Below are positions 6,278-25,489 of a stretch of 46,651 nt of DNA, piece after piece. This DNA comes from Acetobacteraceae bacterium. Its GTDB lineage: Bacteria > Pseudomonadota > Alphaproteobacteria > Acetobacterales > Acetobacteraceae. Under the pieces are notes generated by a model, which had not been told where the DNA came from, did no database searches, and saw nothing but the letters and a program-made list of their open reading frames with translations. Both the position numbers and the translations under genes were made by a program. The DNA is taken from positions 1 to 46,651 of the forward strand of contig DAHWFB010000056.1 in the NCBI GenBank assembly GCA_027326105.1, in the 5' to 3' direction. Positions within the stretch are counted from its first letter, which is position 1; every line of letters begins with the position of its first letter.

Positions 6278-7438
6278 TCAGGGCACCCGGGAGACGAGCG
6301 GGGTGGTGGAGGCGGAGGCGGCCGCGAAACCGAGCCGGCGGGGACCGGCGGGGTAGCCGTTCTGGGCGAGGATGAAGGCCATCACGTCGGCGTACTGGCG
6401 GGGGGTGAGGCTGGCCGGGCGGCCGGCCGGCATCTGCCCGGCGAGGAAGGAGAAGATCGCGCCCACCGAATAGCCCATCGACGCGGAAGCGAAGCCCGGG
6501 CCCTTCAGCGTCGGCCCGACCAGGCCCTGGAGGTGGCCGCCGTGGCAGGCGGCGCAGTTCTGCGCGAACACGCGGCCGCCCGCCGCCGCCTGGGCGGTGG
6601 TGAAGAGGGCGGGAACCGCGGGCGCCGCGGGGGCGAGCCGGGGCAGGGCGAGCGGGGCGATCAGCCCGGAAAGATGCGCCTTCTCCTGCAGGGCGAGAAG
6701 TTTGGCGAGCCCGGCTGCGAAGCGCTCGCCGGCGGCGTGACCGGCGGCATCGTCGGCGGTGAGTGCGGCGATCACCCAGGCGGCGTGGGGCTGGTGCAGA
6801 AGCCGGGTCCGGAAGCGGAGCCCGTGGGCGCGGGCGAAGGCGGCGAGCGCGCGGTGGCGGGCGAGAAAGGCGAGATAGTCGGGCTGCCAGACGACCGCAC
6901 CCGCGACCTTGCCGGCCGCCAGCGCGGCCAGACTCTGCGCGTCCGAATCGAAGATATCGGCGGCGAGCGCGGGATGGCGGGCGGCGAACAGGCTCGACGG
7001 CGCGAGATAGGTGACGCCGAGGCGGAAACCCCTGGGCAGGGCCGCGAGCGGCGCCGGCGCGGTGCCGACGGTGACCAGGACGTAGCCGGTCTTGGCGTAG
7101 GCGGCGGCCAGCGTGAGCCCTTTCGGCACGCCGGTGCCCGGCGCCGGCAGCGGCACGCCCATCACCACGTCGCAGCGCGTGGCGAGCTTGCGCAGGAGCG
7201 GGCCGCGCACGCCCTTCTTGCCGGCGCGGGCGCTGCTGAAGGGGACCAGCGTGGCCGCGCTGCCCGCGGCCGCGGCGACCGCGCGGGCCACCTTCGCGTC
7301 GCGCCCGGCGAGCGGACTCGCCCGGTCGATGCAGAAGCGCATTCCCGGCGCGGCGGCGGAGGCGGGCTGCGTGAGCAGCCCGCCGGTGAACGCGAGGAGG
7401 GTGAGGGCCGCGGCCCTACTTGCCCAAGCCGAAGACAT
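6278..7438 (-). CDS. Quinoprotein-associated periplasmic binding-like domain fused to cytochrome c
   Basis: Exported 386-aa protein. A Sec signal peptide (about 1-30, ending ASAAA) leads into a region (about 31-260) resembling the MoxJ/XoxJ-type substrate-binding-like proteins that accompany PQQ dehydrogenases. A class I cytochrome c domain follows, with CAACH at 295-299 and probable Met336 axial ligand in GQMPAG. In known methanol oxidation clusters the J protein and the cytochrome (XoxG/MxaG) are separate genes; here they are one chain. It overlaps the upstream PQQ dehydrogenase gene by 23 nt, so coupled synthesis is likely. Inferred role: electron acceptor and maturation or docking partner of that dehydrogenase in the periplasm. 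Confidence 0.8.
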   Translation of the reverse strand: MSSAWASRAAALTLLAFTGGLLTQPASAAAPGMRFCIDRASPLAGRDAKVARAVAAAAGSAATLVPFSSARAGKKGVRGPLLRKLATRCDVVMGVPLPAPGTGVPKGLTLAAAYAKTGYVLVTVGTAPAPLAALPRGFRLGVTYLAPSSLFAARHPALAADIFDSDAQSLAALAAGKVAGAVVWQPDYLAFLARHRALAAFARAHGLRFRTRLLHQPHAAWVIAALTADDAAGHAAGERFAAGLAKLLALQEKAHLSGLIAPLALPRLAPAAPAVPALFTTAQAAAGGRVFAQNCAACHGGHLQGLVGPTLKGPGFASASMGYSVGAIFSFLAGQMPAGRPASLTPRQYADVMAFILAQNGYPAGPRRLGFAAASASTTPLVSRVP

Positions 7439-9137
7439 AGAGATGCCCTCCCCGGGGGATGTTCTTGATCGAAGGATCGTTCGCCATCACCCCGCCCCAG
7501 ATCGGCGAGGCGCCGCCCCAGCCCGCCCAGAGCGCGACATACTGCTTGCCCGCGATCTCGAACGTCGAGGGCTGGCTCACGATGCCGGAGGCGAGTTGCG
7601 GGCTCTCCCACAAGACCTTGCCGGTCTTGGCGTCGAAGGCCATCAGATGCCCGTCCGCGCGGCCGCTGAAGACCAGGCCGGACGCGGTGGTGAGCACGCC
7701 GGAATTCCACGGCGCCTTGGTCTGGTACTGCCAGACGCGCTTGCCGGTCGAGAGGTCGATCGCCTGCAGCGAACCCCAGCCCTTGGCGCCGGGCTGCGGC
7801 ACCACCTGGAAGCTCTCGCCCAGGAACGGCAGGCCGCGCAGATAGGAGACCGGCGCGCCCTTCATCGTCATGCAGGCGTGCAGCGTCGGCACGTAGGCCA
7901 TGCCGGTCGCGGGATCGACCGACATCGGCCACCAGTTCTTGCCGCCGAGGAAGCTCGGGCAGGTGAAGATGCCCTTGGTCAGCGTCGGGCGCACCGCGTC
8001 GTTGGTGAGCGTGCCGGCGGCGGCGGTGACCGATTTGATCGAGAGCGAGTGCACGAAGGGCCTGGCGTAGATCAGCTTCCCGGTGGTGCGGTCGATCGCG
8101 TAGAAATATCCGTTGCGGTCGGCGTGCACGATCGCCTTGTAGGCGTGGCCCTTCCAGGTCACGTCGGCGAGGATCGATTCATTGGTGCCGTCGTAGTCCC
8201 AGGTGTCGTGCGGGGTGAACTGGTAATACCACTTGAGCGCGCCGGTCGCGGGATCGAGCGCGAGCACGGAATCGGTATAGAGGTTCCTGCCCGGACGCAT
8301 CGTGGCGAGCCAGGGTCCCGGATTGCCGACGCCCCAGAAGAGGGTTTTCGTCGCCGGATCGTAGGTACCGGTGAGCCAGGCGCCGCCGCCGCCGTGCTTG
8401 TAGGCGCCCTTGGGCCAGGTGTCGCCGCCGGGCTGGTTCGGCGCCGGAATGGTGAAGCGCTTCCAGGAAATCGCGCCGGTTTTCGCGTCCAGCGCGGCGA
8501 TGAAGCCGCGCGCGCCGTATTCGCCGCCCGATTCGCCGACGATCACCTTGCCGTCCACGACCAGCGGCGCGACGGTGAGCGCGTAGCCCACGCCGGGGGG
8601 TTTCAGCGTGGTATCCCACACGATCTTGCCGGTGGTGGCCTGGAAGGCGAGGACGTGATTGTCGAGCGTCGCCATGTAGACCAGCGACCCGGCGACCGCG
8701 ACCCCGCGGTTGACCACGTCGCAGCACACCGTCTTGGTCGCGGTCGGCGGAAAGACGCGGTCGTATTTCCACAGCAGCTTGCCGGTGAGCGCGTCGAACG
8801 CGCGCAGATGGTCCATCGGCGTGGTGACGAACATGTAGCGGCCGTTGACGATGGGCGCCGCCTCGTAGCCGGGCTTGAGCCCGTCGTTGTAGCTCCAGAC
8901 CGTGGTGAGTTTCGCGACGTTGGCGGGATTGATGGCGGTGAACGGCGCGTAGGCCTGGCCGGAATAGTCGCGGCGGAACATCAGCCAGCCGGGATCGGAC
9001 TCCGCCTTGGCGAGACGGGCGGCGGTGACGGCGGGATAGGGCGGCATCGCCGCCGCGGCGGGAAGCGCGCTCGCGAGCAGCCCGCCGCCGGCCAGGGCGG
9101 CGGCGCGAATCGCGAGGGGGGAGCGGGAACGTTTCAC
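7416..9137 (-). CDS. PQQ-dependent alcohol dehydrogenase, predicted lanthanide type
   Basis: Periplasmic quinoprotein oxidising primary alcohols to aldehydes. The 573-aa precursor has a signal peptide (about 1-30, ending ALPAAAA) and an eight-bladed propeller with repeated tryptophan-docking motifs. Visible active-site features are the vicinal disulfide pair Cys138-Cys139 (TVCCDVVNRG), metal ligands Glu206 (GESGGEYGARG) and Asn272 (GVGNPGPW), and catalytic Asp314 in HDTWDYDGTNE. Asp316, two residues on, is the extra ligand that marks XoxF/ExaF/PedH-type lanthanide enzymes; calcium enzymes have Ala or Ser or similar there. There is no C-terminal haem domain, so it is not a quinohaemoprotein. 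The GTG start at 9137 has an AAGGAAGG site upstream; a longer frame exists without support. Confidence 0.92.
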   Translation of the reverse strand: MKRSRSPLAIRAAALAGGGLLASALPAAAAMPPYPAVTAARLAKAESDPGWLMFRRDYSGQAYAPFTAINPANVAKLTTVWSYNDGLKPGYEAAPIVNGRYMFVTTPMDHLRAFDALTGKLLWKYDRVFPPTATKTVCCDVVNRGVAVAGSLVYMATLDNHVLAFQATTGKIVWDTTLKPPGVGYALTVAPLVVDGKVIVGESGGEYGARGFIAALDAKTGAISWKRFTIPAPNQPGGDTWPKGAYKHGGGGAWLTGTYDPATKTLFWGVGNPGPWLATMRPGRNLYTDSVLALDPATGALKWYYQFTPHDTWDYDGTNESILADVTWKGHAYKAIVHADRNGYFYAIDRTTGKLIYARPFVHSLSIKSVTAAAGTLTNDAVRPTLTKGIFTCPSFLGGKNWWPMSVDPATGMAYVPTLHACMTMKGAPVSYLRGLPFLGESFQVVPQPGAKGWGSLQAIDLSTGKRVWQYQTKAPWNSGVLTTASGLVFSGRADGHLMAFDAKTGKVLWESPQLASGIVSQPSTFEIAGKQYVALWAGWGGASPIWGGVMANDPSIKNIPRGGHLYVFGLGK

Positions 9138-9195
9138 GATCGGTTTCCTTCCTTGTTGGTTGTGGTCGGAGGCGGTCGGGGCGGGCCTGGCTGGT

Positions 9196-9579
9196 TCAGG
9201 CGCCGCCTGTCTGCGCGGCTTCGAGTGCCGCCGCTTCCGCGTCGGTGAACAGGCGCGAGCGGGTGAGGAAGCGCAGTCCGGTGGGACGCTCGAGGGAAAA
9301 CATCCCACCGTTCCCTGGCACCGCATCGATGATCAGCTGGGTGTGGCGCCAGTAGGCGAACTGCGAACCGCTCATGTAGAAGGGAACGCCGGCGATTTCG
9401 CCGAGCAGCACGTCGACGTCGCCGACCAGGAATTCGCCGGCCGGAAAACACATCGGCGCGCTGCCGTCGCAGCAGCCGCCGGACTGGTGGAACAGCAGCC
9501 CGCCGTGTTCGGCGGCGAGGCGCGCGATCAATGCGCACGCCGCCGCCGTCGCCACCACCCGCGCGGGCCGCTCCGCCAT
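9196..9579 (-). CDS. DUF779 family protein
   Basis: A 127-aa protein of the DUF779 family, recognised by the segment HQSGGCCDGSAPMCF and by its position beside an aldehyde dehydrogenase, its usual neighbour. Cys36, Cys37 and Cys44 form a compact cluster that could bind a metal or an Fe-S centre; no function is established that I know of. The ATG at 9579 has a strong GGAGGGGGG site. It lies 26 nt after the aldehyde dehydrogenase stop and 58 nt before the PQQ dehydrogenase, inside the sigma-54 operon. Confidence 0.85.
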   Translation of the reverse strand: MAERPARVVATAAACALIARLAAEHGGLLFHQSGGCCDGSAPMCFPAGEFLVGDVDVLLGEIAGVPFYMSGSQFAYWRHTQLIIDAVPGNGGMFSLERPTGLRFLTRSRLFTDAEAAALEAAQTGGA

Positions 9580-9605: not shown

Positions 9606-11156
<1,551 letters not shown>

Positions 11157-11441: not shown

Positions 11442-13391
<1,950 letters not shown>

Positions 13392-15037: not shown

Positions 15038-16834
15038 ATGGCAGCGGATGGCTCCTCCTCCTCGCCGCGGCGGCTGCGCAGCCGGCGCTGGTTCGACAAT
15101 CCGCACAACCCGGGGATGACCGCGCTCTATCTCGAGCGCTACCTCAACTACGGGCTGACCCGGGGGGAATTGCAGTCGGGCAAGCCGATCATCGGCATCG
15201 CCCAGACCGGCTCCGACCTCTCGCCCTGCAACCGCCACCATCTCGAGCTGGCCAGCCGGGTGCGCGACGGCATCCGCGAGGCCGGGGGCGTGCCGATCGA
15301 GTTTCCCGTCCATCCCATCCAGGAGACCGGCAAGCGGCCGACCGCCGCCCTCGACCGCAATCTCGCCTATCTCGGCCTGGTCGAGGTGCTGCACGGCTAC
15401 CCGCTCGACGGCGTGGTGCTGACCACCGGCTGCGACAAGACCACGCCGGCCTGCCTGATGGCCGCCGCCACCGTCAACCTCCCCGCCATCGTGCTCTCCG
15501 GCGGGCCGATGCTGGACGGGTGGTACCAGGGGCGGCTCGCCGGCTCGGGGACGATCGTCTGGGAGGGGCGCAAGCTGCTCGCCGAGGGCAGGATCAGCGC
15601 CGACGAGTTCATCGAGATGGTCTGTTCCTCGGCGCGCTCGCCCGGGCACTGCAACACCATGGGCACCGCGAGCTCGATGAATTCGCTGGCCGAGGCTTTG
15701 GGCATGTCGCTGCCCGGCTGCGCCATGATTCCCGCGCCCTACCGCGAGCGCGGCCAGATCGCCTACGAGACCGGGCGGCGGATCGTCGCCATGGTGGCCG
15801 AGGATCTCAAGCCCGCCGACGTGATGACCAGGGCGGCGTTCGAGAACGCGGTGGTGGTGGCCGCGGCCATCGGCGCCTCCTCCAACTGCCCGATCCACAT
15901 GGTCGCGATCGCCCGCCACATGGGGGTCGATCATTCGCTGGCCGACTGGCAGCGGCTGGGGCCGGAAATTCCCCTGCTCGCGGACGTGCAGCCGGTGGGC
16001 CGCTTCCTCGGCGAGGCCTTCCATCGCGGCGGCGGGGTGCCGGCGGTGATGAAGGAGCTGCTCGGCGCCGGGAAGCTGAACGGGGCGGCGATGACGGTGA
16101 CCGGGCGCACGGTGGCGGAAAACCTCGCCGCCGTCGGCGCGCCCGACCCCGAGGTCATCCGCCCCTACGCCACGCCCTTGAAGGAGCACGCGGGGTACGT
16201 GGTGATGGCGGGCAATCTGTTCGAGAGCGCAGTGATGAAGACCAGCGCCATCGACGAGGAGTTCCGCGCCCGCTTCCTCTCCGACCCGGCGCGGCCCAAC
16301 GTGTTCGAGGGGCGGGTCACCGTGTTCGAGGGGCCGGAGGACTATCACGCCCGCATCGAGGACCCCGGCCTCGGGATCGACGAGCGGACCGTGCTGGTGA
16401 TCCGCAACGCCGGCCCGGTGGGCTATCCGGGCAGCGCCGAGGTGGTGAACATGCAGCCGCCGGCGGCACTGCTCGCCAAGGGCATCAACGCCCTGCCGAC
16501 CATGGGGGACGGGCGGCAGTCGGGCACGTCCGGCAGCCCCTCCATCCTCAACGTCTCGCCCGAGGCGGCGGTGGGCGGCGGGCTCGCGCTGCTGCGCGAC
16601 GGCGACCCCATCCGCATCGATCTCAACCACTGCCGGGTCGATCTGCTGCTGCCCGAGGCCGAGATCGCCGCCCGCCGCGCCGCCTGGCGCCCGCCCGTGC
16701 TCGACAACAAGACGCCGTGGGAGGAGATCTACCGGGCGGGCGTGGGCCAACTCGGCACCGGGGCGTGCCTGGAGGCGGCGACCCTCTATCTCGACGTCAT
16801 CCGCACCCGCGGCGAATCGCGCGACAACCACTGA
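15038..16834 (+). CDS. IlvD/Edd family dehydratase, probable sugar-acid dehydratase
   Basis: Removes water from an aldonic acid to give a 2-keto-3-deoxy acid. The 598-aa protein carries the three Fe-S Cys positions of the family: Cys64 (DLSPCNRHH), Cys132 (TTGCDKTTPA) and Cys205 (PGHCNTMGTAS). The spacing and sequence match arabinonate/xylonate-type dehydratases, which bind a 2Fe-2S cluster, better than true IlvD. The Mg-binding and C-terminal segment GDGRQSGTSGSPSIL is intact. It is followed after 18 nt by an SDR resembling 2-keto-3-deoxy-L-fuconate dehydrogenase, which fits a non-phosphorylative sugar-acid route. The precise sugar acid is not determinable here. Confidence 0.88.
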   Translation: MAADGSSSSPRRLRSRRWFDNPHNPGMTALYLERYLNYGLTRGELQSGKPIIGIAQTGSDLSPCNRHHLELASRVRDGIREAGGVPIEFPVHPIQETGKRPTAALDRNLAYLGLVEVLHGYPLDGVVLTTGCDKTTPACLMAAATVNLPAIVLSGGPMLDGWYQGRLAGSGTIVWEGRKLLAEGRISADEFIEMVCSSARSPGHCNTMGTASSMNSLAEALGMSLPGCAMIPAPYRERGQIAYETGRRIVAMVAEDLKPADVMTRAAFENAVVVAAAIGASSNCPIHMVAIARHMGVDHSLADWQRLGPEIPLLADVQPVGRFLGEAFHRGGGVPAVMKELLGAGKLNGAAMTVTGRTVAENLAAVGAPDPEVIRPYATPLKEHAGYVVMAGNLFESAVMKTSAIDEEFRARFLSDPARPNVFEGRVTVFEGPEDYHARIEDPGLGIDERTVLVIRNAGPVGYPGSAEVVNMQPPAALLAKGINALPTMGDGRQSGTSGSPSILNVSPEAAVGGGLALLRDGDPIRIDLNHCRVDLLLPEAEIAARRAAWRPPVLDNKTPWEEIYRAGVGQLGTGACLEAATLYLDVIRTRGESRDNH

Positions 16835-17661: not shown

Positions 17662-18447
17662 ATGGGACGCTCCGGCTGCCGCTGGTGGGGATTGGCGCTC
17701 GGGCTCGGGCTAGGGCTCGCTCGGCCGGATGCGGCGCTCGCGGCGGGGGGATCGCGCTACACCGGCCAGGCGATCGTCACCGGCACCGACATGCGCGACC
17801 GGCCGCGCGGGCTCGCGCTCTGCCTCGCGCAGGCGCTGGTCAAGGCTTCGGGAGACCCCAACGTTCTCCGCCGGCCGGGCGTTCCCGCCCTGGAGGGGAA
17901 GGCGACCGCGTTCGTGGCCGGTCTCTCCTACGTCGATCGGATGAGCGGACAGCCGAAGCACGACGAGCAGGGCTCGCGCGACCGGCCGTTCACCCTCACC
18001 GCACGCTTCGACCCGGCGAAGATCGACGCGGCACTCGTGGGGCTCGGCGTCGCGCCCTGGCGGGGGCCGCGGCCGACCGTCGCGCTGGTCATCGCGGTGG
18101 CGGGCTTCGGGCATGCGTTCACCGTCACGCCGACCGAACCGCTGGCGGTGGACATGCGCGCGGCGCTCGTCGAGGAGCGGCGGCTCTATGACGTGCGCGT
18201 GGCGCTGCCCGCCGCCGCGGGAGCCACCCCGCGCGGGACCATCCTGGTGCGCGGGACGCTGCGCTGGGATCAGGCCCATTTCGGCTGGCGGGCGCGCTGG
18301 GCAAGCCTCTGGTACGGGCGGACGTATCGCTGGGGCGAGGACGGCGTGCCCTTCGATGACGCTTTCGGGGCCGCGCTCGCGGGCGCGCTGGGCCTTGCCG
18401 CCGGCCACGCGCCGCCACGGCCCGGCACGCCGTTGGTGCGCCGGTGA
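17662..18447 (+). CDS. DUF2066-like exported protein
   Basis: A 261-aa protein with an N-terminal signal sequence (GLALGLGLGLARPDAALAA) and a domain opening YTGQAIVTGTDMRDRPRG, with a conserved-looking block DEQGSRDRPFTLTARFDPAKID. This resembles DUF2066 proteins as I remember them; the assignment is tentative and no biochemical role is known. ATG 17662 follows GGGAAGG. Its stop overlaps the GTG start of the metallohydrolase gene by 3 nt, tying it to the quinoprotein relay cluster. It may be an accessory periplasmic factor. Confidence 0.6.
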   Translation: MGRSGCRWWGLALGLGLGLARPDAALAAGGSRYTGQAIVTGTDMRDRPRGLALCLAQALVKASGDPNVLRRPGVPALEGKATAFVAGLSYVDRMSGQPKHDEQGSRDRPFTLTARFDPAKIDAALVGLGVAPWRGPRPTVALVIAVAGFGHAFTVTPTEPLAVDMRAALVEERRLYDVRVALPAAAGATPRGTILVRGTLRWDQAHFGWRARWASLWYGRTYRWGEDGVPFDDAFGAALAGALGLAAGHAPPRPGTPLVRR

Positions 18448-19406
18448 CGGTGCCGCGGTTCGGCTGCTGTGGCTGCGGCCGGCGGGCGCTGATCGCCGCC
18501 GGAGCGGCCGGGCTGTTCGCCACCGGGGCGGCGGAGGCCGCGCCGGTGTTCACACTGCACGAGGTGGCGCCGGGGATCTTCGTCCGCCACGGGCTCTATC
18601 AGGACGCTAGCAAGCGGAATCTCGATTTCATCGCCAACACCGGCTTCATCGTCGGGGAACGGGCGGTCGCGGTGATCGACCCCGGCGGCAGCCTCCCGGA
18701 CGGGGAGCGTCTCTACGCGTCCTTGCGCGCCCGCACCCGGCTTCCGGTGCGCCATCTCATCCTCAGCCACCTCCACCCCGATCACTACTTCGGCGCCCAG
18801 CCGTTCCTGGCCGAGAAGCCGGAGGTGATCGCCCATTGGCGGATGCCGGACGCGATCGCCGAACAGGAGGCCTATTACCACACCCGCCTCGCGGAGGTGG
18901 TGGGCACGGCGGCGGCCGGTGGGCTGGTGCGGCCGACGCGGCTGGTGAAAGCGGTCGCCAGCGTCGATCTCGGCGGGCGGGTCCTCGATCTGACCGCCCA
19001 TCCGCGCGCCCATACCTTCACCGATCTGACCGTCTTCGACCGCGCCACCGCGACCCTCTGGATGGCGGATCTGCTGTTCGTGAAGCGGATCCCGGCGATC
19101 GATGGCAGCCTCACCGGCTGGCAGAAGACTCTGGCGGCGCTCGCCAAGGTGAAGGCGGCCCGGGCGGTGCCCGGGCACGGGCCGGTCGCGGTCGCCTGGC
19201 CGGCGGGGGCGGTGGACGAGGCGCGCTATTTCCGCGTGCTGCGCAGCGGGATCCTCAAGGTGCTGCACGACGGCGGGGATATCGAACAGGCGGTGGCGAG
19301 CGTGGGGCGGAGCGAGCGCGGCAGATGGCTGTTGTTCGACGCCTACAACGGGCGTAACGTGACCGCTTCGTTCAAGGAACTCGAATGGGCGGCGACGCCG
19401 GGCTGA
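18444..19406 (+). CDS. Quinoprotein relay system zinc metallohydrolase (SoxH-like)
   Basis: Periplasmic metallo-beta-lactamase-fold hydrolase of 320 aa. An unusual Cys-rich, twin-Arg N-terminus (GCCGCGRRALIAAGAAG) suggests export, perhaps by Tat. The zinc site is H109-x-H111-x-D113-H114 in SHLHPDHYFGA, with later ligands in HPRAHTFTD, MADLLF and VPGHGP. The family is known from neighbourhood analysis to travel with quinoprotein dehydrogenases and SoxYZ-like carriers, and may act on the carrier-bound group. The GTG start at 18444 overlaps the preceding stop (GTGA), and the SoxYZ-like gene follows after 25 nt. Confidence 0.85.
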   Translation: MTVPRFGCCGCGRRALIAAGAAGLFATGAAEAAPVFTLHEVAPGIFVRHGLYQDASKRNLDFIANTGFIVGERAVAVIDPGGSLPDGERLYASLRARTRLPVRHLILSHLHPDHYFGAQPFLAEKPEVIAHWRMPDAIAEQEAYYHTRLAEVVGTAAAGGLVRPTRLVKAVASVDLGGRVLDLTAHPRAHTFTDLTVFDRATATLWMADLLFVKRIPAIDGSLTGWQKTLAALAKVKAARAVPGHGPVAVAWPAGAVDEARYFRVLRSGILKVLHDGGDIEQAVASVGRSERGRWLLFDAYNGRNVTASFKELEWAATPG

Positions 19407-19431
19407 AGGCAGCCGCCGCGGGAGATCGTCC

Positions 19432-20253
19432 ATGGCACTGCCGCTGACCGGCCGGCGCGGCGTTTCGCTGGCACTGGGCGCGGGGCTGGCGACGCTCGGG
19501 GCTGGTCCGGCCTTCGCAATCGCCGACAAGGCGATGCGCGAGGCGCGCTGGAAGGCGCTCGACGCGCTGCTGTTCGGCAAGACCGCGCTGCGCGACGGCG
19601 CCGGGATGCTCACGCTCGACGCTCCCTTCCGCGCGCAGGACGCGGCGCTGGTGCCGATGGGGCTCACCGTCGCGCCAGCGGCGGCACCCTCGGTGCTGAT
19701 GCTGGTGATCGATCTCAACCCTTCGCCGGTCGCGGCCAAGGTTGCCTACGGGCCGGCAGGGGATCCGCATCTTTTCCGCGCCCGGGTGCGCGTGAACGAC
19801 TATACCTGGGTGCACGCGGTCGCGGAGACCGCGGACGGGATTTTCCTGGTGCGCAAATATGTCCGGGCGGCGGGCGGCTGCTCGGCACCCTCGGTGGGTG
19901 ACCCCGCGACCGCGAGCCGCGACATCGGGCAGATGAAGCTGCGCCTGGCGAGAGCGCCGCTGGCGAACGGGGCGCGCGAGGCGACACTGCTGATCCGCCA
20001 TCCCAACAACAACGGGATGCAGATGGACCAGCTGACCCACTACATCATCCCCCCCCGCTTCATCACCACCATCGCCGTCCACCTGGGCGGCGAGCGGGTC
20101 TTCGCCATGGAGACCGGCATCTCGCTCGCCGAGGACCCCGCCATCACCTTCGCCTTCCACCCGCGCCGGGGAGCGGCGCTGGAGGCGGTGGTGCACGACA
20201 CCAGCGGCGCCGTGTTCCGCAAGCGGTTCGCGCTCCCGTCCCTGGCGAGCTGA
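19432..20253 (+). CDS. Quinoprotein dehydrogenase-associated SoxYZ-like carrier protein
   Basis: A 273-aa exported fusion: a SoxY-like domain (about 30-150), ending in the carrier-type motif AAGGC with Cys150, then a SoxZ-like domain (about 165-270: MKLRLARAPLANG, HYIIPPRFI). In SoxY the corresponding GGCGG Cys carries a sulfur intermediate, so Cys150 is probably the carrying residue. The signal region TGRRGVSLALGAGLATLG contains a twin-Arg, hinting at Tat export in a pre-folded form. Together with the upstream metallohydrolase it makes a quinoprotein relay pair. The likely client is the PQQ dehydrogenase at 7416-9137. Function of the relay remains hypothetical. Confidence 0.85.
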   Translation: MALPLTGRRGVSLALGAGLATLGAGPAFAIADKAMREARWKALDALLFGKTALRDGAGMLTLDAPFRAQDAALVPMGLTVAPAAAPSVLMLVIDLNPSPVAAKVAYGPAGDPHLFRARVRVNDYTWVHAVAETADGIFLVRKYVRAAGGCSAPSVGDPATASRDIGQMKLRLARAPLANGAREATLLIRHPNNNGMQMDQLTHYIIPPRFITTIAVHLGGERVFAMETGISLAEDPAITFAFHPRRGAALEAVVHDTSGAVFRKRFALPSLAS

Positions 20254-20307: not shown

Positions 20308-21575
20308 CTATCCGGCGAGCGCGATGTAGACGATCGAGGCGGCCAGTAGCGCGAGCAGCCAGAGGGCGGCGGGGAGCAAGCGGCGGTCGCGCGAGAGCGC
20401 CAGCGCATAGCCCGCCTTGAGCAGATTGTTGCTGCCCGAGGCGACCAGCACGGCGGCTTCCACCGCCCCCGGCCCGACATGGAAATTCCCCGCCAGCAGC
20501 GACAGGATGAAGGGATCGATGTCGGTGAAGCCGACCGCGAAACTGAGCACGTGCAGCCCGTTCGCCCCGTAGCGGGCGACGATGACGCGGGTGATGGCGG
20601 CGAAGGCGACGAAGAGGGCGGCGAACAGGAGCGCGATCGGCAGATCGAGCGGGTTGGAGGTGGCGTGCGGCGCCGCCCGCGCCGGCGCCTTCGCGCCACC
20701 GCGGGCGAGCAGCGCGGCCACCACCGCGGAGCCCACGAGCGCCGCCGCGAACGGGGCGGCGAGGCGCATCGCCATGGCGCGATGGCCGAGCACCAGGATC
20801 AGCACCCAGAGGCGCAGATACATCATGGCGGTCGCGATCACCACCGCCGCCGCCGCCTCGCGCGCGCTGTCCGGCTCCGCGCGGGCGGCGCGGGCGAGCA
20901 CCACCGTCGCCGCGGTGGAGGAATAGAGCCCGCCGAGCACGCCGGTGAGCAGGAGCCCGGCGCGGGGAAAGAAGTAGGTGTGGGCGAGATAGCCGAGATA
21001 GGAGATGCCCGAGATCAGCACCACCGCGAGCCAGACCTTGGCATAGGTGATGCCGGGCAGCCCGGGAATGTCGGCGGCGGGCAGCAGCGGCAGGACGAGG
21101 CCGGCGAGGATCAGGAACTTGGCGAGACTGACCCCCTCGGCGGCGGGAAACGCGTCGGAGAAGCGGCGGATGCCGGGCTTCTCGCCCAGCATCAGGATCA
21201 CCGCGACCGCGAGCGCCGCGACCAGCCAGACCGGGCCGGCGGCGATCAGCGGGCCGAGCAGGAAGACGAGGAGCGCGACCAGCGTGGGCAGCAGCGATTC
21301 CTCGCCGCGCGCGATGCGGGCGCGGTATTCGATCGCGAGCCAGAGCGCGAGGGCGGCGAGCGCGACCGGAAAGGCCAGCGGCATGCGCGCGGCGAGCCGC
21401 CAAACGGCGAAGCCGGCGACCCCGATGAGGGTGAGCGTGCGGGTGGTGCCGAAGCCGAGACCCTCGCCGGCGCCGCGCCGGTAGGAGTGCAGTTCGAGGC
21501 CGATGACGAAGCTCAGCGCGACCGTCGCGGCAAAGGCGACGAAGGCGGGCGGCAGCGCGCCCGCGCCCGCCGGGT

Positions 21576-21579
<4 letters not shown>
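20308..21579 (-). CDS. MgtC/SapB and DUF4010 family membrane protein
   Basis: A 423-aa integral membrane protein with about a dozen hydrophobic segments. The N-terminal part (FAATVALSFVIGLELHSYRR) matches MgtC/SapB-type modules, and the C-terminal half has the DUF4010 feature VGFTDIDPFILSLL followed by ASGSNNLLKAGYALAL. Role unknown; transport or envelope homeostasis has been suggested for the family. The GTG start at 21579 overlaps the glmS stop (GTGA), so it is translated behind glmS in the glmU-glmS operon. Confidence 0.8.
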
Positions 21580-23398
<1,819 letters not shown>

Positions 23399-23399
<1 letters not shown>

Positions 23400-24763
23400 C
23401 AGCCCTTCGCTCCCTGCTTCGCCCCGCCCTGCGTCACCCCGCCCTGCTTCGCGACGCCCTGTCTCGCGGCCCGGAACGCCGCCGCGGCGCCCGGCTTGTT
23501 GCGCTGGCGGGCGCGGCCGAGGGCAAGCTCGTCCGCGCCGACCGCGGCGGTGATGACACTGCCGGCGGCGACGATCGCCCCGGCGCCGACCGTGACCGGG
23601 GCGACCAGCGCGCTGTTCGAGCCGATGAAGGCGCCGGGCCCGATCTCGGTGCGGTATTTGCCGAAGCCGTCGTAGTTGCAGGTGATGGTGCCGGCGCCGA
23701 TGTTGGCGCCCGCCCCCACCGTGGCATCGCCGAGATAGCTGAGGTGGTTGGCCTTGGCCCCCTCGCCCAGCGTCGCGGCCTTGAGTTCGACGAAATTGCC
23801 GACCTGGGCCCGCGCCTCGACCACCGTTCCCGGACGCAGCCGGGCGAACGGGCCGACCACCGCGCCGGCGCCCACCCGGCAGCCTTCGAGATGGGAGAAG
23901 GAGCGGATTTCCGCCCCCGCCGCGACCGCGACCCCGGGGCCGAAGACGACGTTGGGGGCGATGGTGACGTCGGGGGCGAGCACGGTGTCGGCGGCGAGGA
24001 ACACCGTCTCCGGGGCGGCCATGCCGACGCCGGCGGCGAGTGCTGCCGCGCGCAGCCGCCCCTGCACGGTGGCCTCGGCGGCGGCGAGTTCGGCGCGGGT
24101 GTTGATGCCGCGCGCCTCGGTGAACGGGGCTTCGACCGCGCCGGCACGCAGCCCCTCGCCAGCGGCGAGGGCCACCACGTCGGTGAGGTAGTATTCGCCC
24201 TTGGCGTTGTCCGGGCGGACCTGGCCGAGCCAGCGGCGCAGGTCGGCCGCGCGGGCCGCGATGCCGCCGGCGTTGCAGAGGCCGATCGCACACTGCTCCG
24301 CCGTCGCGTCCGCCGCCTCGACGATGCGGGTGACGTAGCCGCCTTCGAGCACCACGCGCCCGTAAGGGGTGGGATCGTCCGGGCGGGTGGTGAGCAACGC
24401 CAGTGCCGCGTCCCCGGCGCGCAGGCGGGCCAGCAGCGCCCGCAAGGTCTCCGGCGTGAGCAGCGGATTGTCCACGTAGAGGATGGCGACCTCGCCGGCA
24501 CCGAACTGCGCGGCGGCGGCGCGGGCGGCGTCCGCAGTGCCGCGCGGGGTCTGCTGGAGCGCGAGGGTGTGGGCGGCGGCGGCGGCGGCCACGCCTTCCA
24601 TCCCCGGCGCGGCAACCACGACGATGTGGTCGAACACCGCCTCGCAGGCGGCGAGCAGGTGGGCGATCATCGGCCGGTGGGCGAGCGGGTGGAGCGCCTT
24701 GGGCAGGGCCGATTTCATGCGGCTCGACTGTCCGGCGGCGAGGATCACGGCGGTTGCGACCAT
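23399..24763 (-). CDS. glmU: Bifunctional UDP-GlcNAc pyrophosphorylase/glucosamine-1-P acetyltransferase
   Basis: Last two steps to UDP-GlcNAc for peptidoglycan and LPS. The 454-aa protein has an N-terminal uridyltransferase (LAAGQSSRMKSALPK) and a C-terminal left-handed beta-helix acetyltransferase with hexapeptide repeats, catalytic His in KANHLSYLGD and IGAGTITCNYDG. Some N-terminal motifs are atypical: YVDNP (residues 96-100) in place of YGDxP, and GTADA in place of GTAHA; the Mg-binding Asp98 is kept. The C-terminus ends in a Lys/Gln/Gly repeat tail (VAKQGGVTQGGAKQGAKG). The gene is divergent from gph across a 72-bp gap. Confidence 0.95.
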
Positions 24764-24835
24764 GGATTTGGGGTAGCGGGAGAGGGCGTGCCGTGTCAAA
24801 GGAACCGGCTTCAATTCGCGTTTCGGAGTGCAACC

Positions 24836-25489
24836 TTGCCGGGAATCGTGGTCTTCGATCTCGATGGCACATTGGTCGATACGCTGCCCGACCTGGCGGC
24901 GGCGGTGAACCGGGCGTTGGCCGCGCGCGGGCTCGCGCCGCTCGCGTCCGCCGCGGTCGCGGCGATGGTGGGGGACGGCATCCGCATGCTGCTGACCCGG
25001 GCGCTCGCCGCCCGCGGACAGCGCCCGGCGGAGGCGGACTTTCCCGCCTTCGCCGCCGACTATGCCGCCCACGCCGACGACGCCTCCTGCCTGTTCCCGG
25101 GCGCCGCCGAAACCCTGGACGCGCTCGCCGGGGCGGGCTGGCGGCTCGCGGTCTGCACCAACAAGCCGGAGGCGCCGGCGCGCTCGCTGCTCGCGGCACT
25201 CGGCGTGCTCGACCGTTTCGACGCCGTCGGCGCAGGCGACAGTTTCTCCGCGCGCAAGCCCGACCCCGCCCATCTCGCGGCGACCCTCGCCGCCGCCGGC
25301 GCGGCGGCGCGCGAGGCGGTGATGGTGGGCGATCACGCCAACGACATCGCGGTCGCGCGCGGGCTCGGGGTGCCGGCGATCTTCGCCGGCTGGGGCTACG
25401 GGCGGCCCGCCATGGCGGAAGGGGCGGCGGCGATCGCCCGCAGTTTCGCCGAAATCCCGGCGCTCGCGGCGCGCTGGCGGGGGAATTGA
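24836..25489 (+). CDS. gph: HAD family phosphoglycolate phosphatase
   Basis: Dephosphorylates 2-phosphoglycolate, a by-product of DNA repair and oxygenase activity. The 217-aa HAD hydrolase shows motif I VFDLDGTLVDT with nucleophile and acid Asp, a helical cap, motif II VCTNK, motif III Lys in ARKPDP and motif IV VGDHANDI. Length and motif spacing fit Gph. The start is TTG at 24836 (LPGIVVFDLDG), supported by GGAG 7 nt upstream; there is no nearby ATG. Divergent from glmU. Confidence 0.85.
   Translation: MPGIVVFDLDGTLVDTLPDLAAAVNRALAARGLAPLASAAVAAMVGDGIRMLLTRALAARGQRPAEADFPAFAADYAAHADDASCLFPGAAETLDALAGAGWRLAVCTNKPEAPARSLLAALGVLDRFDAVGAGDSFSARKPDPAHLAATLAAAGAAAREAVMVGDHANDIAVARGLGVPAIFAGWGYGRPAMAEGAAAIARSFAEIPALAARWRGN

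Follow-up and report, generated by a model that had tools for sequence, protein, structure and literature searches.

The window which we have analysed is a stretch of 46,651 nucleotides from an Acetobacteraceae bacterium. It is gene-dense, with a GC content of 72%, and its source genome amounts to 2.55 Mb and is 82% complete. Three consecutive genes with the same direction (+) are found in positions 17662-20253. The first one (17662-18447, ATG to TGA) codes for a DUF2066 protein of 261 amino acids, which matches PF09839 in residues 33-176 with 66.4 bits (gathering threshold 23). It is followed by the gene of a quinoprotein relay system zinc metallohydrolase 2 (18444-19406, GTG start), a SoxH-related protein of the MBL fold with a Tat-like signal and a score of 352.7 bits for TIGR04559 (cut-off 280). 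The third gene (19432-20253, ATG start) codes for a quinoprotein dehydrogenase-associated fused SoxYZ-like carrier, with 218.2 bits for TIGR04557 (cut-off 140). An earlier note on this DNA had assigned the last two genes to the quinoprotein relay families and had joined them by a GTGA overlap to a DUF2066-like gene: the scores confirm the three assignments and the overlap of 4 bp between the DUF2066 and metallohydrolase genes is read directly in the sequence, CGGTGACGGTG.

This overlap would disappear if the metallohydrolase started at an alternative GTG two codons downstream. Among the 27 pairs of same-strand neighbours in the window 6 overlap and 14 lie within 30 bp. In relatives the gene nearest upstream of the metallohydrolase differs: it may be pqqE-like, ABC-ATPase-like, a 118-aa exported protein or others, and in some of them these differing genes also have a 4-bp overlap with the metallohydrolase. 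Since the upstream gene varies and overlaps are common in the window, we have rejected the GTGA overlap as a proof of joint function. At most the DUF2066 gene is possibly co-transcribed with the relay pair.

The metallohydrolase and the SoxYZ fusion

The product of 18444-19406 is a predicted zinc metallohydrolase of the TIGR04559 family. The ligand residues H109, H111, D113, H114, H190, D209 and H245 form a complete MBL metal-ligand set and are invariant in 13 relatives. Most relatives also have two arginines ahead of a hydrophobic stretch in their N-terminus; because this feature recurs, Tat export of the predicted enzyme is plausible. The earlier note had suggested twin-arginine signals for both relay proteins. 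The suggestion remains plausible for the metallohydrolase, but not for the SoxYZ fusion, in which the RR is not conserved and most relatives show a Sec-type MK...LL signal. A peculiarity of the metallohydrolase N-terminus is the cluster of cysteines next to the twin arginine (GCCGCGRR, in 18444-18530), which is odd for a signal peptide. Cysteine clusters are found in the N-termini of relatives as well (FCC, CLCC and CACC in loci L124, L127, L136 and L138).

The SoxYZ fusion contains the Pfam domains PF13501 (SoxY) and PF08770 (SoxZ), and its solved relatives are SoxY and SoxZ. Cys150 is found in the context AAGGCSAP, where G148, G149, C150, S151 and P153 are invariant in 11 relatives; the placement of this cysteine in a GGC motif, already pointed out in the earlier note, is therefore correct. 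In the AF2 model (pLDDT 81.7) there are two beta domains, and Cys150 lies beside a low-confidence stretch, 151-153, between them. Such a modelled position is what one would expect for a carrier arm.

The homology with SoxY and SoxZ might suggest that the relay pair works in ordinary Sox thiosulfate oxidation. We consider this very improbable and have rejected a true Sox role on the basis of the scores and the motif: the fusion reaches 43.3 bits with the true SoxY model (cut-off 125) and 52.9 bits with the true SoxZ model (cut-off 76), and instead of the GGCGG of true SoxY, which is absent from it, it has GGCSAP. The gene company of the pair, which consists of PQQ genes, also argues against such a role. 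The fusion shares with the Sox carrier SoxYZ both domains and a carrier cysteine on a flexible stretch, but it is a single chain with an internal cysteine. As it lies below the true models and has no GGCGG, it may act in the way of a SoxYZ carrier and yet not belong to them.

The third member of the relay set

We have studied the surroundings of SoxYZ, with flanks of up to 10 kb, at 80 loci whose GTDB genomes are named. Among the neighbours the metallohydrolase (MBL) is found in 74 loci, TIGR03865, a rhodanese-like protein with a CXXCW motif, in 62, pqqE in 20 and XoxG/XoxJ in 11; DUF2066 is found in none of them. In 52 of the 62 loci with TIGR03865 its gene lies within 1.3 kb of SoxYZ in the same strand.

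The same picture is apparent in a sample of 397 genomes of the family, 52 of which have SoxYZ. TIGR03865 is over its cut-off in 49 genomes, 48 with SoxYZ and one without it. It is thus present in 48 of the 52 SoxYZ genomes (p~6e-56, Fisher test); this p-value and those given below are optimistic, since related genomes are counted as independent. The four exceptions include the genome of the window, in which TIGR03865 was not found at 82% completeness, and three of the four are less than 90% complete. In the case of the window the gene may sit in the unassembled 18%. The recurrent third member of the relay is TIGR03865, not DUF2066. Being almost one-to-one with SoxYZ, it is the partner to test with the relay pair rather than DUF2066, and the metallohydrolase, SoxYZ and TIGR03865 form a sharp three-gene set for deletion work under rare-earth conditions.

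This set has been described in other species. In Pseudomonas putida it corresponds to PP_2677, PP_2678 and PP_2666 (the last one being the rhodanese), with homologues META1p1703-1705 in Methylorubrum extorquens (2026 review, PMC12997753). The ped cluster of P. putida resembles the window in that a lanthanide-type PQQ alcohol dehydrogenase is accompanied by a SoxYZ-like carrier and a SoxH/quinoprotein relay metallohydrolase. It differs by its rhodanese PP_2666, for which no counterpart was found in the 82% complete genome of the window, and by the DUF2066 gene upstream, which is a feature of the window. M. extorquens has all three families of the set, and the Methylorubrum loci L205, L215 and L225 have the order metallohydrolase-SoxYZ-rhodanese; they differ by the adjacent rhodanese and the absence of DUF2066. 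The relay pair and its rhodanese are an already described set, and the window holds ordinary members of this accessory pair, which goes together with PQQ enzymes for the oxidation of alcohols, often of the rare-earth-metal kind.

The DUF2066 protein

The contrast between DUF2066 and TIGR03865 was drawn on one and the same sample of genomes. DUF2066 is found in 21 of the 397; it coincides with SoxYZ in 5 genomes, whereas 2.75 are expected (p=0.125), or in 4 if the genome of the window is left out (p=0.25). The two genes are adjacent in the window only: in each of the other four genomes they are on different contigs, and TIGR03865 is present in all of these. The surroundings of the DUF2066 genes of relatives are varied and unrelated. 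The earlier note had suggested that DUF2066 may be a third component, and had itself stated that a lack of co-occurrence with the pair in relatives would refute this. No association has been found in the 397 genomes or the 80 named loci, and we have rejected DUF2066 as a third component on co-occurrence and neighbourhood.

DUF2066 might still be a true third component in the lineage of the window, where it could replace the missing TIGR03865. The protein is exported and its gene overlaps that of the metallohydrolase by 4 bp, features which go in this direction together with the failure to find TIGR03865 in the 82% complete genome. Nevertheless we judge it highly unlikely, given the lack of association in the 397 genomes and the 80 named loci and the separate contigs of the four other genomes with both genes, all of them provided with TIGR03865. 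Furthermore, 3 of 13 relatives lack the only cysteine of the mature DUF2066 protein, which is thus not conserved, and the missing TIGR03865 may be in the unassembled 18%. The complete scenario, in which TIGR03865 was lost in this lineage and DUF2066 was recruited into the relay operon as a functional replacement, appears extremely unlikely.

We hold it probable that the relay pair has been identified as a known kind and that DUF2066 is a bystander, most likely a chance, lineage-specific neighbour of the pair. A relative (G160, loci L126/L147) has the pair beside the same HAD-glmU-glmS block as the window, with pqqBCDE upstream of the metallohydrolase and no DUF2066. In the genome of the window pqqE is on another contig than the relay pair. 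The HAD-glmU-glmS block (20308-25489 in the window) adjoins the pair in both genomes with opposite orientation. The shared block hints at where the pair was located ancestrally. The simplest reading is that a local rearrangement has placed DUF2066 ahead of the pair.

From these data we infer that DUF2066, as an ordinary exported protein, has a role unrelated to the relay pair. A sequence search for solved relatives gave none convincing (best E 0.39). The structure model has a pLDDT of 86.6 and gave no Foldseek match at E<=0.001. With VIA-align it matches, with Z up to 7.1, envelope proteins such as PqiC, TolB N-domain, LptE and PelC, but also ribosome-hibernation and tRNA-synthetase domains; as these unrelated domains match too, the fold matches are uninformative on function. 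In the parts of the literature available to us DUF2066 is mentioned a single time in each of two papers, one of which gives no statement on its function. The canonical DUF2066 of other Alphaproteobacteria (L120) belongs to the same Pfam family PF09839, but it has about 394 aa, compared with 261 in the window, and it is found amid purM-, purN-, ndk- and ppk-like genes (named by reading their sequences) instead of adjoining the relay pair. A relative of the ILVD/EDD-type dehydratases is found near DUF2066 both in the window (15038-16834) and in L106 of genome G217 (6553-8244). This is probably due to chance, as it is the case in one of 15 other tabulated DUF2066 loci.

PQQ dehydrogenases and the possible function of the relay pair

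At about 8.3 kb from the relay cluster there is a PQQ alcohol dehydrogenase gene in the minus strand (7416-9326; TIGR03075, 573 bits, cut-off 480), in agreement with the distance of some 8 kb given previously. Its product has the adjacent cysteines of VCCDVV and a lanthanide-type DYD motif, both of which we read directly. The DYD motif is the mark of lanthanide-dependent enzymes. The same operon contains an ExaC-type acetaldehyde dehydrogenase (9606-11156, minus strand; NF050026, 938.5 bits, cut-off 900). Divergent from it, in the plus strand, we find a sigma-54 activator with a GAF domain (11442-13391), which likely regulates this operon.

The link between the relay families and PQQ dehydrogenases proposed in the earlier note holds in the family sample: a PQQ alcohol dehydrogenase is present in each of the 52 genomes with SoxYZ, while 20 are expected (p~2e-25, 397 genomes). 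Among the matches listed, 22 SoxYZ loci lie at 15 kb or less from a dehydrogenase. In the relative G122 (L137) the relay pair has, at a distance of no more than 10 kb, a dehydrogenase like that of the window, an ExaC (76% identical) and a DUF779 gene; DUF2066 is absent from this locus. The PQQ dehydrogenase of the window is likely a client of the pair.

An alternative is that the pair serves PQQ itself, by its protection or late maturation, and not one particular dehydrogenase. The presence of a PQQ dehydrogenase in all 52 SoxYZ genomes of the family fits this idea, 19 or 20 of the 80 loci have pqqE, pqqC and pqqB next to the pair, and the guarding of PQQ against sulfur nucleophiles has been raised in PMC12997753. 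However, PQQ dehydrogenases are found in the absence of SoxYZ in 99 of the 397 genomes, so that SoxYZ is not required by PQQ alone. We regard this alternative as possible but rather doubtful.

For the P. putida set the proposed roles are disulfide formation, cofactor stabilisation or PQQ protection from sulfur nucleophiles, and RB-TnSeq in the absence of rare earths gave a minimal phenotype for its genes (PMC12997753). Given these proposals, the modelled position of Cys150 and the solved relatives SoxY and SoxZ, a sulfur or thiol relay is the best inference: homology with SoxYZ and gene company suggest that the pair would most likely protect or mature periplasmic quinoproteins. By analogy with SoxY, the periplasmic Cys150 would hold a sulfur or thiol adduct on its flexible arm. 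The rhodanese-like protein, the one not found in the genome of the window, could transfer sulfur or a disulfide to Cys150 or take it over from there, and the metallohydrolase would release or resolve the adduct. The purpose might be either the shielding of PQQ from sulfur nucleophiles or the formation or repair of the disulfide between the adjacent cysteines in the dehydrogenase. The details of this scheme, from the Cys150 adduct to its purpose, are tentative, and we give them slightly less than an even chance.

The dehydrogenase of the window is adjoined in the same strand (6278-7438) by the gene of an exported protein of 386 aa with a C-terminal c-type cytochrome domain (PF13442, 40.1 bits, residues 281-355); its N-terminal part has no Pfam match. 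A counterpart of 429 aa with a similar layout is found by the dehydrogenase in L137. The genome of the window contains on another contig (C18; L141, 10258-13630) a XoxF-type dehydrogenase with DYD and adjacent cysteines, accompanied by a cytochrome like XoxG and a protein like XoxJ.
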